From Discostella pseudostelligera (Eukaryota; Bacillariophyta; Thalassiosirophyceae; Thalassiosirales; Thalassiosiraceae), in NCBI GenBank assembly GCA_036940085.1, contig JALLBK010000179.1, forward strand, positions 1-33,000: a stretch of DNA of 33,000 nucleotides. Reading direction: 5' to 3'. The notes under the pieces are model-generated. The model ran no database searches. It worked only from the letters and a program-made list of their open reading frames with translations, and was not told the DNA's origin. Shown piece by piece: positions 21,875-28,600 of the stretch (position 1 is its first letter; every line of letters starts with the position of its first letter). A program made the position numbers and the translations under genes.

Positions 21875-24800
21875 TTATTTGTTAGTCAAATGATTGTTCC
21901 CTTGGAGCTTGAAGTTCAAGATGTCACGTATGGGGATTTCCGATGGCACAAACAATAGCTCATTTCCCTCTTTATCCCTCTCGGTACCAACAATTTTATG
22001 ATCCGTAAGTTCCTTCAAAATATTGCGCAAGTTAACATCCGAAGATGTCAACATCTTCTTTACGCATTCATCTCTTAATGTATTATACGAGACAGGATTG
22101 GACTCGTTCGAAAGTTGAAGTGTTGCAAGAGCTTGTAATGCCTCAGTGTGCCTGGGTGCCAGGTAGGCTAGAACTTTGAGCGCCGCGGAACCTCCACCGA
22201 TGGTCTGGCTTCCTTTTCCTCGTTTAATCTTCTTTGATGATTCTTCTTGAGGCATGCATCGCACTTCTTCGATGTAGGGCCTGTATGTGTGGACTTTTTT
22301 CCAAGCCTTAAGCCAAAAAGGCAGCGATTGCAATATGAGGCGTTTGTTCCACGGCATCATGCTGAAATATTAGAATCAAAGACTCTCTAGAGTTGATAAT
22401 CATCTTGTCACTTACCCAATCAAATTTGTACTCGACATGCGGAGACCACAATACCATTGCCGCATTCACATTATCCACCGACGCAGCGATGCGTATCAAT
22501 GGTGAACCATTCTTGTTGCTGTTGGCGGAAAGGACAGCAAGAGCCTCCTGTGCGAAAACGCTACGCAAGCCTGCCCCGTCAATGTTGTGGATCAATAAAA
22601 ACAAAGGTCTGGATCTTGTTGTAGCGATTCGTTTTGCAATTGTTGTGGCCCTTTTCGTCAACAAATTAACATTCGAGTCTCTCGTCGGTTGGGTAATACT
22701 TCGCTGATATTCGGTACCATTGCAAAATATTTCATCGATGCAGTCGAGAAATGCATTCATGTCGATGTTTGGATCGTAGCCATTGAGGCTAATAACATCT
22801 CCCTCTTGCGCAAGGTGCTGCCCGAACGAAGTAAGTACTGATATCTTTGATCCTAGTCCGTACAGCAGGATTGACTGACTCGTTGCCAATGCAAATGACC
22901 ACTCCTGGAACTGCTCCTGGTATTGCACTTCGTACTTGTCGAACTCGACCTCGACATTAGATTGGCGAAACAAAGTTTTCACCTCAGCTATGCACTCTTG
23001 CTGTGTAGGCACGATGATATCACTAGCACCATCACTATTTTTCGATGATTTCTTTCCAGACTTTTTGCCGAAGTACTGGTCGACTTCTTCGGCACCTTTT
23101 CTTTGACGAGTGGATGCTTTTGATGAATTGTCTTTTCGAGCGTTCACCTTCGAAGTCACATCAAGATTGTTATCAGTTTTTCTCGAAACCTCATTTCGGC
23201 AAGCGAGACAGATGTGTTCCTTCTTTGCATCATTGCCCAAGTAATCGATTTGGAGACAGAGTCGATGATAAAATCGCCCACATGTTCCCTTGCATGCAAC
23301 AAGATTTCCCTCCCGGTTTGCACACTTCTCGCATCGAAGGGTAGTTTCTCGCATACTCTGTTCAGGAGGTCGAACATGATGATCAGATCATACTAGAAAC
23401 GATCGAAAAATGGATAGACCATACAACCAAGCAATTTACATCTTACCTCCGTCTCTTGAACAATCTCACCCGATATAGCTAATGCATCACGAATTCGAAT
23501 GTCCGCAGCACTGCCCGTCTTCGATGGGAGAGCATTGATGCAAAACAAGTGTACCCAAATTTCAGGCATATCCGATGATCTTCGGCTTTTCCTCTTTCGA
23601 CTCTTCTCATCGGCAACACCATTTCCCGCGTCGTCATCATCAAGTACAATTCGTACCATTCCTCCAATGATGGAATTTTTCACGCACAGTGGACAAACCG
23701 CATTGGGGTGCGTATGAACACGCCATCCCGAAGATTGAGATGCGTGATATCGCACTTTTTGTTTCACACCGTCATCTACTAAACTATGCATGCAGACATC
23801 GCATGTGAAGTATCCCTTTGCGTCCACCTCGGCTCGTGTTCTTGCATTCTTTTCGTACTTGTCATAATCCGATAATCCATAACAATGCGTGTGTACTATA
23901 AGACCACACTTCCGACATGCCACACGAGGATAGAGAATATTCGGACCCTTGAAACAAACATCGCATGGTCGATGGTTGTGACCGTACTTGGACTGACTGA
24001 GATCCATAGTTTGCTCCTGACGCTTGCGCACTCGGTCGCGATAGGCCACTTCCAATAATTCATGTCGTAGTTGTAAGTTGCGGCGTTTGTATGCCTTGGA
24101 TTTCGTAGATTGAGCAATTTGTTGAGCATGAATTTCTGACGGTGTGGCTCGATAATCCGTCATGCAATATTCATCAAGATATGTAACCAAATCGTTGGGG
24201 TTGTCAAATATCTCTGGTCCTTCTCCTCCATCGAAATCTTCTCCGTCGGATTTTTGTTCAGTATTTTCATCACATGTTATTGTATCATCTAGGTTGAAGT
24301 GTCTATATATTATTTTTGTCGTGCCCTCGGTGTCATATGCAATTCTTCCGTTCCTTCTCTCAATAGCCTTGGGAATGTGATACTTTCCATTCGAGTAGGT
24401 CCATCCAGCGGCTTGCAAATATCTCCATAATTCATTGAACGTTGGGATATTCAGACCGAGAACTCTTGTTCGTAATTGAAAACAGTGTAACTCGTCAAAA
24501 TTGGCGTCCTGTTGGCATTGATCATTGGTGTTGACGTCGGCTACGGTGCATGCAGCTGTCTCCTCGACTTCTTCCATTGAGTCTGCTTTGTTGTTGTCAG
24601 TTGATTTGTCACCATCAAATAAATTGCCATCGCATGAAGAAAAATTCTCATCCACCCCCAAAGCAGCAATACCCTCCGAATTTTCACCAATATTTTCAGA
24701 TGCAGCAGGTTCCACACTACTACATCCGTTCCCGACGGTGAAAGAGGAAGCCGCCACCTTTCGTAATGCCTCTTCTGAAAATTCAGTATCCTCTCTCAAT

Positions 24801-25042
24801 TCCGATACTCGCTCCATGACATCATACACGAACGATAAATCTAAATCTCGTTTCTGTGACATACACTCATTTTTCATCAAGTTGTAGAATTCATCGAAAT
24901 CCTCGTCCTCTTCTAGTGATTGGATGAATTGCAATACCTTGATGGCAAGTTCCAAGGCCGAGAGTGGCGATTGCAATGAAATGAGTGCGGTGGTGCATCG
25001 ATGGTAGAGCCAGTGGGCGTTGGAGTCGTCGTCGAGCTCCAT
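21875..25042 (-). CDS. ORC2: Origin recognition complex subunit 2 fused to a PHD-knuckle-PHD module
   Basis: Exons 25042-23447, 23357-22416 and 22306-21875 give 989 residues; introns are 89 and 109 nt, phase 0. Residues 185-225 hold a GW-type domain (FNELWRYLQAAGWTYSNGKY). PHD1 is C360, C363, C376, C379, H384, C387, C414, C417. A C2HC knuckle is C450, C453, H498, C501. PHD2 is C541, C544, C554, C558, H563, C566, C582, C585. This is the PZP order of BRPF, JADE and AF10 proteins. The ORC2 core follows in the same exon as PHD2: WSFALATSQSILLYGLGSK, VISLNGYDPN, LFLLIHNIDGAGLR and RIAASVDNVNA. Splicing of intron 2 gives FDWAWKKVHTYRPYIEE (animal ORC2 has NWLWYETTTYSPYTEE), then a C-terminal winged helix (about 880-975). 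It should act in nuclear origin licensing; the reader module may direct it to histone H3 tails. Confidence 0.92.
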
Positions 25043-25271: not shown

Positions 25272-25470
25272 GAGCTCCTCTGTAAGAAGTACTGGTTTCT
25301 CGTTTTTAAATTTGGAAGGAGAAAGGACCCAAATTCAAATTTGACGAGATCCTCTGACAATCGTACCAGTTTCTCGTTTTTAAAAATGGGAAATGAGAAA
25401 GATTTGAAATTCGAATAAGTTTAAATTCTACGGGCTCCTCTGTAGATGTACCAGAGACTCATTTTGGATC
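25272..25470. repeat. Imperfect triplicated repeat (about 75-86 bp period)
   Basis: Three copies start at 25272 (GAGCTCCTCTGTA), 25346 (GAGATCCTCTGACA) and 25432 (GGGCTCCTCTGTA). Each is followed by GTACYRGTTTCTCGTTTTTAAA or a decayed form (third copy GTACCAGAGACTCATTTTGG) and then a G/A-rich GAGAAAG tract. Copies 1 and 2 share about 20 consecutive bases around TTTCTCGTTTTTAAA. Period is 74 then 86 bp. No coding frame follows the repeat. Confidence 0.65.
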
Positions 25471-25542
25471 TTCCGTTTGTGAGAAAAGAGAGAAAGGGCA
25501 GTCGAGTCGCTGCGGACGGACAGACGGACACCCAGCCCAATC

Positions 25543-25553
25543 TTTTTGGCGCG
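25543..25553 (+). promoter_or_regulatory. E2F-like site upstream of SMC6
   Basis: TTTTTGGCGCG matches TTTSGCGC, 142-152 bp upstream of the SMC6 ATG. It may lie in the promoter or 5' leader. Confidence 0.4.
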
Positions 25554-25694
25554 TCCTTCTCTTGCTTGTTGCTTGTTGTCTCTGCTGCTGCTGCCGCATC
25601 GATTGCTCGCTTGCGCTGCTTGCCCCATCATTTCATTTCACAGCATTGGTCTTCTTCATCGTCACCACATTGCTCCTATTCGATCCGGAACAAT

Positions 25695-28600
25695 ATGCCC
25701 ACCCCGAGCCGTCAAAAGAGAGCCCCCCAAGCCGACGAGGAGGCATTCGATAGCGAGGTGTTTGACAAAGAGAACGAAATGAACGGCGGTGCTGGCAGCG
25801 GCAGCGCCGGGAAGCGCAAGCAGTCGCCGGACGATGGTGACGACAACGAAGACCATGTGCAACAACAGGCTAATGACATCGACAACGACGACTCGCCACG
25901 CTCCCCGCCACCCAAACATTCCAAAAAGAAATCGAAGAAATCCGCCAGCTTCGCCGCCGCCACGTCCGACTCACCCATGAAAGATCGTCACATCAACCCC
26001 ACCGGCAAACCCGCCGAGGCCGGAATCATCCATGAAGTCTACGTTGAGAACTTCATGTGTCATCGCAAACTCTCCGTGAAATTATGTCGCAATGTCAATT
26101 TCATCCATGGTCAGAATGGCAGTGGCAAATCAGCNTCGCAAACTCTCCGTGAAATTATGTCGCAATGTCAATTTCATCCATGGTCAGAATGGCAGTGGCA
26201 AATCAGCCATATTGGCCGCTATTCAAGTTTGTTTGGGTGCCGGAGCACGTCGCACACATCGAGCACGCAATCTCAAAGATTTGGTCCGCAAAGAGGCCGG
26301 TGCCGATTGCGCTGGTGCCAAACTACGCGTCACACTCCTCAACAAAGGCGCCGATGGATACATGCCCGAAGTCTACGGCGATTACATCACCGTCGAACGT
26401 ATGATCTCTCTCCGCTCTGGTGGGTTCAATGGATACAAACTCCTCGATTCCACGGGCAAAGAACGCTCCAGATCCAAAAAAGATTTGGATGCCATGCTCG
26501 ATCAACTCAATATCCAAGTCGAAAATCCCGTGGCCGTATTAGATCAAGAAGAGGCCAAAAAATTCCTAACCGGTAAAGCTGAGGACAAGTATGAATTCTT
26601 CACCAAGGCTACTGAATTGGAGCGTCTGGATCGTGTCTATGCCAGTATTACCGATAACATTCTGGAGCAAAAGGCAACCCGGGAACGTGCATTGGAGAAT
26701 ATTCAAGGCTCGATTGAGAATACTCGTCAATTGAAAAAAGAGTGGGAACAATTCCAGGAGTTGGATAAGTTGGAGGTGGAGGTGCAGGAGTTGCGGGCGA
26801 ATTATGGATGGAGTGTCCATGGAGAGTTTAGGGAGCAGTTGCAGGAGGAGATGAAGGTGCGAAGAGACGTTTTGTAGGGGGGGTTATTCCATTGTCATCT
26901 TTCACCCTGATCTCATAATATTGTGGACTCTTTGTCATTGTTGCATCTATCTATCACAGAAAGCCCAAAAGTACGCCAAGGCACTTGAGAAACGTCGTGT
27001 AGAATACACCACAGCCGAACAATCCGTCAATGTCACCGACGATCAAGAGATGGAGGTGAACAAGCAACTCAAAGAACTTACCGATGAAGCCAATGCCGCT
27101 GCTGCGGACAAGTTGCAATTGGAGAATGATCTCAAGGCAGCTCAGGCACCCATCAAATTGAAGGAACGAGAACGCGGATTACTCTCTCGGGAATTGGCCC
27201 AGGAGAAGAAGAAGCATGCATCGGCCATCAAACGTCTCGATGATGCTCGTCGTCACATATTGGAAAGTCAGGGCCATGTAGCCGAGGAGGAACGAGTACG
27301 GACACGTAAAATTGCCCAAACCGAAAATGACTTGGCACGTGCCAGAGAGCAAGTGGAGCCGCTGAAAGAGCAGGTGAATGAACATCTTCGGAAATATCAG
27401 GATATTGAACCGGCCATGCAGCAAGCGAAGGAGACGATGGATGGGACGGAGAGGCAATTAGCGGGGGTGCAGCATAAGATGAATGCATTGCAGCAGGAGA
27501 GTGGAGGTGGGATGGCGGCTTTGGCGGTGTTTGGGGGCAAGTGCAAGGCTCTGTATGAGGTACGGATTATTTCTATTCATGCAGTCTTTGTCAATACTGG
27601 AATCAATTGATGCTTACATGCAATGCTCCGTTTCCCATTCATACATCCCACACACAGGCTGTCCAAAAGGCGGAAAGGGCCAAGAAATTCCAGGGCCCAG
27701 TCGCCGGTCCCGTTGGAATGTATGTTAAGATCGTCAGTGGCAAGGAAAAGTATGCCAAAATTGCGGAATCGGCTATTGGACCAGGTGCACTCGACCGCTT
27801 CATCGTGACCAACCAAAGTGATTTGCAATTGATGAACAGACTCCGTAGAGAGGTAGGATGCGGCCCTCGCGATTGTCCATTGTATCGTATTAGTCCAAAA
27901 TCGACGAAGCAGAAGTACAATGTCCCCGAACCGCCGCCGGGAGTGGAGACTATCACGAGTGTCTTGAATGTGGAGAACGCCATGGCATTCAACTTTTTGG
28001 TCGATCATGCGAGTATCGATACGTCGGCACTGGCAGATTCGAAGGAGAGCAGTGAAAGTGCCCTCCTTGTGAGGGAGAATAATGGCAAGTGTTCTATCAA
28101 GGGTGGGAAAATTCGTAAGGTGTTCTTCTTACCTAACGCAGATTATTGGGAGGCAAGGATGGGTAACATGATGATGGTGGGTAATGATCGCCCTATGAAG
28201 CAGACCATTGGAGTCGATAGGTCCGCGGCAATGGAATCCATTAAGCACGAAATTGTGGCATTGCAGAAGGAGTTGGCTAGGAACAAGGAGGAGGATAAAG
28301 GGGTGAGAGATGCCGCGTATAAGCACAAGAAGGACTGGAACGTGGCCAACGAACAATACAAGAAGCTCATTAGTCGAATCAAGGAGATGGGGGTTACGTT
28401 GGACAGGCTAAAAGACGAGGCTGATACGTCTGAGGAGGCGCCCACCATTGACACAACCGAGTATGAGAGGGACATCCAAGAGGCTGATGCTGCTGTGCAA
28501 GACTTGAAGAGAAAGGAGGCTTCAGTGGTGCAGGAGATCCAATCGCTTCAACCCGCTGTGGAGGAACGGAAGAAGCTCCTTGACGAAGTCACGTCACGAA

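Follow-up and report, generated by a model that had tools for sequence, protein, structure and literature searches.

A PHD–zinc knuckle–PHD module inserted in the ORC2 proteins of thalassiosiralean diatoms

Where no sequence defines the origins, it is still an open question how the origin recognition complex (ORC) selects its sites. Its chromatin reading has so far been tied to ORC1, through the BAH domain and the PHD finger of the plant protein, or to partner proteins. In plants, a PHD finger has been inserted in ORC1 in one lineage (PMC7058166), where it lies beside the BAH domain (title of 5hh7). Human Orc2 is contacted by ORCA/LRWD1, which also binds nucleosomal DNA and a trimethylated histone (PMC10968542), thus attaching chromatin reading to Orc2 through a separate protein. 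HBO1 complexes, whose JADE or BRPF scaffolds bear PHD–zinc knuckle–PHD (PZP) modules or PHD fingers, are tied to ORC1 and function in licensing and origin activation (PMC11566351). Here, a different arrangement is described in the diatom Discostella pseudostelligera, in which a PZP-like module is part of ORC2 itself. The gene lies at 21875..25042, on the minus strand of the window, a stretch of 33,000 nucleotides that corresponds to positions 1 to 33,000 of contig JALLBK010000179.1 (assembly GCA_036940085.1).

The coding region comprises three exons, each with a length divisible by 3, that join in frame to encode a protein of 989 amino acids. Exon 1 (23447..25042, minus strand, as are all features of this gene) encodes an N-terminal helical domain, an acidic stretch, a conserved N-terminal domain (NTD), a first PHD finger (PHD1) and a zinc knuckle. 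It is followed by intron 1 (23358..23446, 89 nt, GT-AG) and by exon 2 (22416..23357), a single open frame that contains the second PHD finger (PHD2), a linker and most of the ORC2 RecA-like domain. Intron 2 (22307..22415, 109 nt, GT-AG) separates this from exon 3 (21875..22306), encoding the end of the RecA-like domain and the ORC2 winged helix (about 21944-22105). Pfam profiles match both parts of the core over their cut-offs, RecA-like_ORC2 (PF04084) at residues 654-911 with an E of 1.8e-39, and WHD_ORC2 (PF24882) at residues 914-967 with an E of 1.1e-13. The RecA-like domain occupies 22416..22994 in exon 2 and ends within exon 3 at about 22112. In sequence, exon 2 is matched by solved ORC2 chains, which are also the top fold matches of the homologue from Detonula confervacea; the RecA-like core and winged helix thus resemble those of animal and fungal ORC2 (PDB 7jgr, 7jpp, 5zr1) in both sequence and fold. 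A separate ORC2 gene without a PHD finger, the present one being silent, would have undermined the initial annotation of this locus as a fusion, but a profile search of the assembly (23 Mb, 963 contigs, possibly incomplete) found one PF04084 match and no second ORC2 core. Judged by its sequence, this locus provides the genome's ORC2.

As had been proposed initially, the fusion can be read without assuming any splice, because PHD2 lies in exon 2 together with most of the ORC2 core. The exon boundaries also hold, including the acceptor at 22306, since the Detonula homologue reads FDW-AWKKVHTYRPY across the exon 2/3 junction and other homologues read similarly. An alternative acceptor for intron 2 at 22361 leads into a stop after 17 codons without yielding the FDW-AWKK junction found in the homologues, and was rejected. 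The unspliced frame reaches a stop after 549 residues. Retention of intron 1 would consequently yield a 549-residue protein (encoded by 23393-25042) with the NTD, PHD1 and knuckle, but lacking PHD2 and the ORC2 core.

Three homologue searches yielded 127 distinct proteins, which were sorted with the help of profiles derived from 14 fused sequences. The module and the core occur together in 26 of the 127, of which 25 contain the whole module and one (P0115) its second half only. A further 68 have the core, preceded by at least 150 residues, without the module, and nine have too little sequence before the core to be judged. The remaining 24 have the module without the core. These are probably exon-1 frames of the same ORC2 gene rather than stand-alone PZP proteins, as the intron-1 donor is read through near the end in 23 of them. 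One of these module-only proteins (P0018) has a 100% match to the window where the two align, yet is not identical to the window's unspliced frame. In nine homologues (P0011, P0013, P0016, P0017, P0019, P0111-P0114), a single open frame covers the NTD, PHD1, the knuckle, PHD2 and the core, and continues across the intron-2 site at DWVS. Since that site is read through, these nine appear to be unspliced frames in which the whole fusion lies in one exon. The fusion is thus confirmed by the homologous sequences as conserved, independent of splice prediction and not due to chance, given that 26 of 127 homologues have module and core and that all zinc ligands present are conserved.

Eight of the 26 carriers come with a species name, and all eight belong to the Thalassiosirales (NCBI taxonomy; Stephanocyclus was looked up by genus): Detonula confervacea (P0001), Thalassiosira sp. 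AJA248-18, T. profunda, T. exigua, Skeletonema menzelii, Cyclotella cryptica, C. atomus and Stephanocyclus meneghinianus. The Detonula protein is an MMETSP entry, which we take to be transcriptome-derived. The initial annotation had called for a survey of stramenopile orthologues; the one made here, in which the stramenopiles sampled by name are diatoms, upholds the fusion. Only four of the 68 module-free proteins have a species name, three of them from animals and one from Amphora coffeaeformis. In a Bacillariaceae protein, too little precedes the core for the module to be judged. Absence of the module from other diatom orders is therefore suggested mostly by sequences without a species name. 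The three named animal ORC2 proteins in the homologue set differ from the diatom protein in having no match to the module profiles, and we know of no fungal ORC2 that contains it.

The module itself has the order PHD, C2HC knuckle, PHD, with 20 zinc ligands. PHD1 (C4HC3; 23792..23965) uses C360, C363, C376, C379, H384, C387, C414 and C417. The C2HC knuckle (23540..23695) uses C450, C453, H498 and C501 and has a long loop, 42 residues in the window protein, inside which lies the basic stretch KSRKRKSRR (residues 480-488; 23579..23605). PHD2 (C4HC3; 23199..23333) uses C541, C544, C554, C558, H563, C566, C582 and C585. In Pfam, a PHD finger at residues 541-585 scores over the cut-off (E 1.2e-6), and PHD_2 over PHD1 (E 3.2e-5) and zf-HC5HC2H_2 over the knuckle and PHD2 (E 1.2e-4) score below it. 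All 20 ligands are invariant where present; the first ten are kept in 26 of 26 rows and the remaining ten in 27 of 27, the difference being P0115, which has only the second half. In ten aligned sequences, PHD1 also has invariant non-ligand residues. PZP structures, several of them with bound H3, are the best matches of the module part, and a model of PHD1 and the knuckle aligns to the PZP domains of PHF14, JADE1, BRPF1, AF10 and a NuA3 subunit, presumably Nto1. The module shares with these the PHD, C2HC knuckle, PHD order and the 20 ligands, and differs from them in its long basic knuckle loop and its location within ORC2. The last PHD2 ligand (C585) is a cysteine in 27 of 27 rows, giving the topology C4HC5HC5HC3, whereas the BRPF1 PZP ends in a histidine (C4HC5HC5HC2H, PMC4705663). 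The description of the module as a complete PZP is therefore correct for its order and number of ligands, but not for the identity of the final one. By its sequence pattern, it is a PZP-like variant and not a strict PZP.

Two module-free proteins (P0122 and P0123) indicate how this architecture arose. Both retain the N-terminal bundle, the NTD and the core. The bundle corresponds to residues 1-100 of the window protein (N0, 24743..25042), predicted to be helical and without a Pfam match in the Detonula copy; the clade-conserved NTD corresponds to residues 180-300 (24143..24505), predicted to form two helices and a short hairpin, and likewise has no Pfam match of note in Detonula. Identity over the NTD plus helices is 72/150 for P0122 and 77/149 for P0123, and over the junction plus the RecA part 104/216 and 109/215. 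In the columns of the module, the two have 42 and 41 residues, respectively, with no cysteine or histidine. As the domains on both sides of the module are kept in these proteins, the alignment shows that the module was inserted ahead of the ATPase-like core and behind an N-terminal domain that ORC2 already had. The NTD profile matches 34 of the 68 module-free proteins at E <0.01, strongly for P0122 and P0123 only and weakly for the others. In a 95-row tree of the core, P0122 and P0123 group with the 27 carriers, among them the window protein, in a clade with 100/100 support, and in a clade-focused tree (35 rows) these two are placed among the carriers. A single clade of carriers is found in 0/200 bootstrap trees of the 35-row set and in 16% in the larger tree; it is not rejected by the approximately unbiased (AU) test (p-AU 0.191, 35-row tree). 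The module was probably gained once, within the Thalassiosirales or in their ancestor, with one gain and one gain plus one loss both fitting the trees.

In AF10, the side chain of H3 Arg2 is held by Asp43, which adjoins Cys42, and a D43K substitution makes nucleosome binding modestly weaker (PMC8257627). The equivalent position, which alignment (PHF14) places directly behind the third PHD1 ligand, is R377 in the window protein (23912-23914). Among 50 sequences given, of which 45 were scored, many of them near-copies, and five were missed by the pattern, this residue is Arg in 43, His in one and Cys in one, and never Asp. The aspartate of AF10 is thus replaced, nearly always by arginine, which makes H3 reading in the BRPF1/AF10 manner doubtful, and the initial expectation that the module would bind the H3 tail in this way is not borne out. 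The knuckle loop has at least four Lys or Arg within eight residues in 36 of the 38 rows scored (of 50 sequences given). As this basic stretch sits in the knuckle loop, contact with DNA is plausible. Nucleosome binding by the BRPF1 and AF10 PZPs involves both H3 and DNA (PMC4705663, PMC8257627).

These observations favor a reading, with a probability of roughly 60%, in which the module is a built-in nucleosome- or DNA-binding arm of ORC, a counterpart in cis of ORCA/LRWD1. Through DNA and histone contact, the module would help ORC to settle on or choose chromatin sites, bridging ORC2 to nucleosomes in cis as ORCA/LRWD1 does in trans. The histone surface that it reads would probably be other than the free H3 N-terminus as recognized by BRPF1 and AF10. 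The fusion, its conservation, the place of the insertion, the zinc ligands and the altered residues are shown directly by the sequences; that the module binds chromatin, what it binds there and whether it affects origin choice are inferred. A more far-reaching version is rather tentative, falling somewhat short of an even chance: that the Thalassiosirales have rebuilt the way in which ORC finds chromatin, the inserted module having lost its grip on the H3 tail and gained a new specificity that sets origin choice in cis. If true, this would be a solution convergent with ORCA-Orc2 in animals and with the PHD of plant ORC1.

Among other readings, the best surviving one, although unlikely, is that the module functions as a PZP and recognizes the unmodified N-terminus of H3, the acid being supplied by the neighboring residue (C-R-D/E-C for C-D-x-C). 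Its order and ligands are those of a PZP, PZP structures with bound H3 are among its best matches, and 33 of the 45 scored sequences do have an acidic neighboring residue (27 Asp, 6 Glu). The same genome encodes further zf-HC5HC2H_2 proteins, L003 (G000:C102) and L004 (G000:C26). The finger of L004 has C-V-K-C, indicating that the Asp is not universal, but L003, a canonical-looking PZP, keeps C-D-A-C in PHD1. The neighboring residue is, moreover, a Lys in the window protein itself, and both the absence of Asp at the AF10 D43 position, with Arg in its place in 43 of 45, and the final PHD2 ligand, which differs from that of BRPF1, are at odds with this idea.

Slightly less probable again is that the module serves as a protein-protein or structural adaptor, perhaps for a replication or silencing factor, and reads neither histone nor DNA. 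The loss of the usual H3 contact is consistent with this, the invariant non-ligand residues of PHD1 could form a partner surface, and human Orc2 is a docking site for ORCA (PMC10968542). The basic knuckle loops, however, fit nucleic acid contact, and the BRPF1 and AF10 modules bind nucleosomes (PMC4705663, PMC8257627). That the fusion is an artefact of two adjacent genes or a mis-joined assembly is refuted at the level of homologues and was rejected as exceedingly improbable, given the exon shared by PHD2 and the core, the nine single-frame homologues, and the presence of the fusion both in the transcriptome-derived Detonula protein and in annotated proteins of seven further named species.

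The nucleosome-binding arm favored here would differ from each of the described systems. ORCA/LRWD1 is a separate WD-repeat protein, an aromatic-cage trimethyl reader that acts in trans, whereas the diatom module is in cis. The link between HBO1 and ORC is a protein contact, and that of the diatom module a fusion to ORC2. The plant PHD resides in another subunit and another lineage, beside a BAH domain, for which the diatom ORC2 protein has no Pfam match; by their architecture, the plant and diatom modules represent independent events. An ORC with a built-in chromatin reader is thus known from ORC1, and what appears to be new is a reader-like module in ORC2, of another kind and in another lineage. 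In its accessible portion, a survey of ORC proteins describes domain changes for ORC1 and not for ORC2 (PMC7058166). In line with the initial suggestion that the architecture was undescribed, no account of a PHD or PZP in ORC2 was found, at the level of titles and abstract starts, among the open-licence PMC papers listed for PHD fingers in ORC2 and for ORC in diatoms, algae and stramenopiles. The conserved presence of the module in one diatom order suggests that ORC2, besides ORC1, can acquire such modules. Its module-free relatives provide natural controls, making chromatin reading by ORC2 in cis directly testable in culturable diatoms.

Other ORC subunits were sought in the same assembly. 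ORC1 was not located, as an ORC1-like AAA+ query sequence, PF22606 and PF17872 gave no match; PF13191 gave 17 matches (17 of 80 candidates scored), and the ten that were pattern-checked (L006-L015) had no ORC1-like stretch. The single match to BAH (PF01426) is below the cut-off, and its open frame was judged by eye to be unlike ORC1. ORC5_C was found, and six-frame searches for ORC4_C and ORC3_N, run without a positive control and hence no evidence of absence, gave no match.

Outside the carrier clade on the core tree, the ORC2 of an MMETSP transcript (P0090, 811 aa) has a MYND zinc finger before its core (PF01753, E 4.2e-4, just under the cut-off), possibly a second gain of a zinc module in ORC2. 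Within the window, an SMC6-like gene (25446-26877, plus strand; the frame at 26080-26877 has SMC6 as its best PDB match, E 2e-37) lies head to head with ORC2, and because of this arrangement the two may share a promoter region. The single N of the window (26135) falls inside the SMC6-like gene, between two copies of a 23-residue coding stretch (starting at 26064 and 26137; region 26064-26205), and this repeat has the look of an overlap that was duplicated where the assembly was joined.
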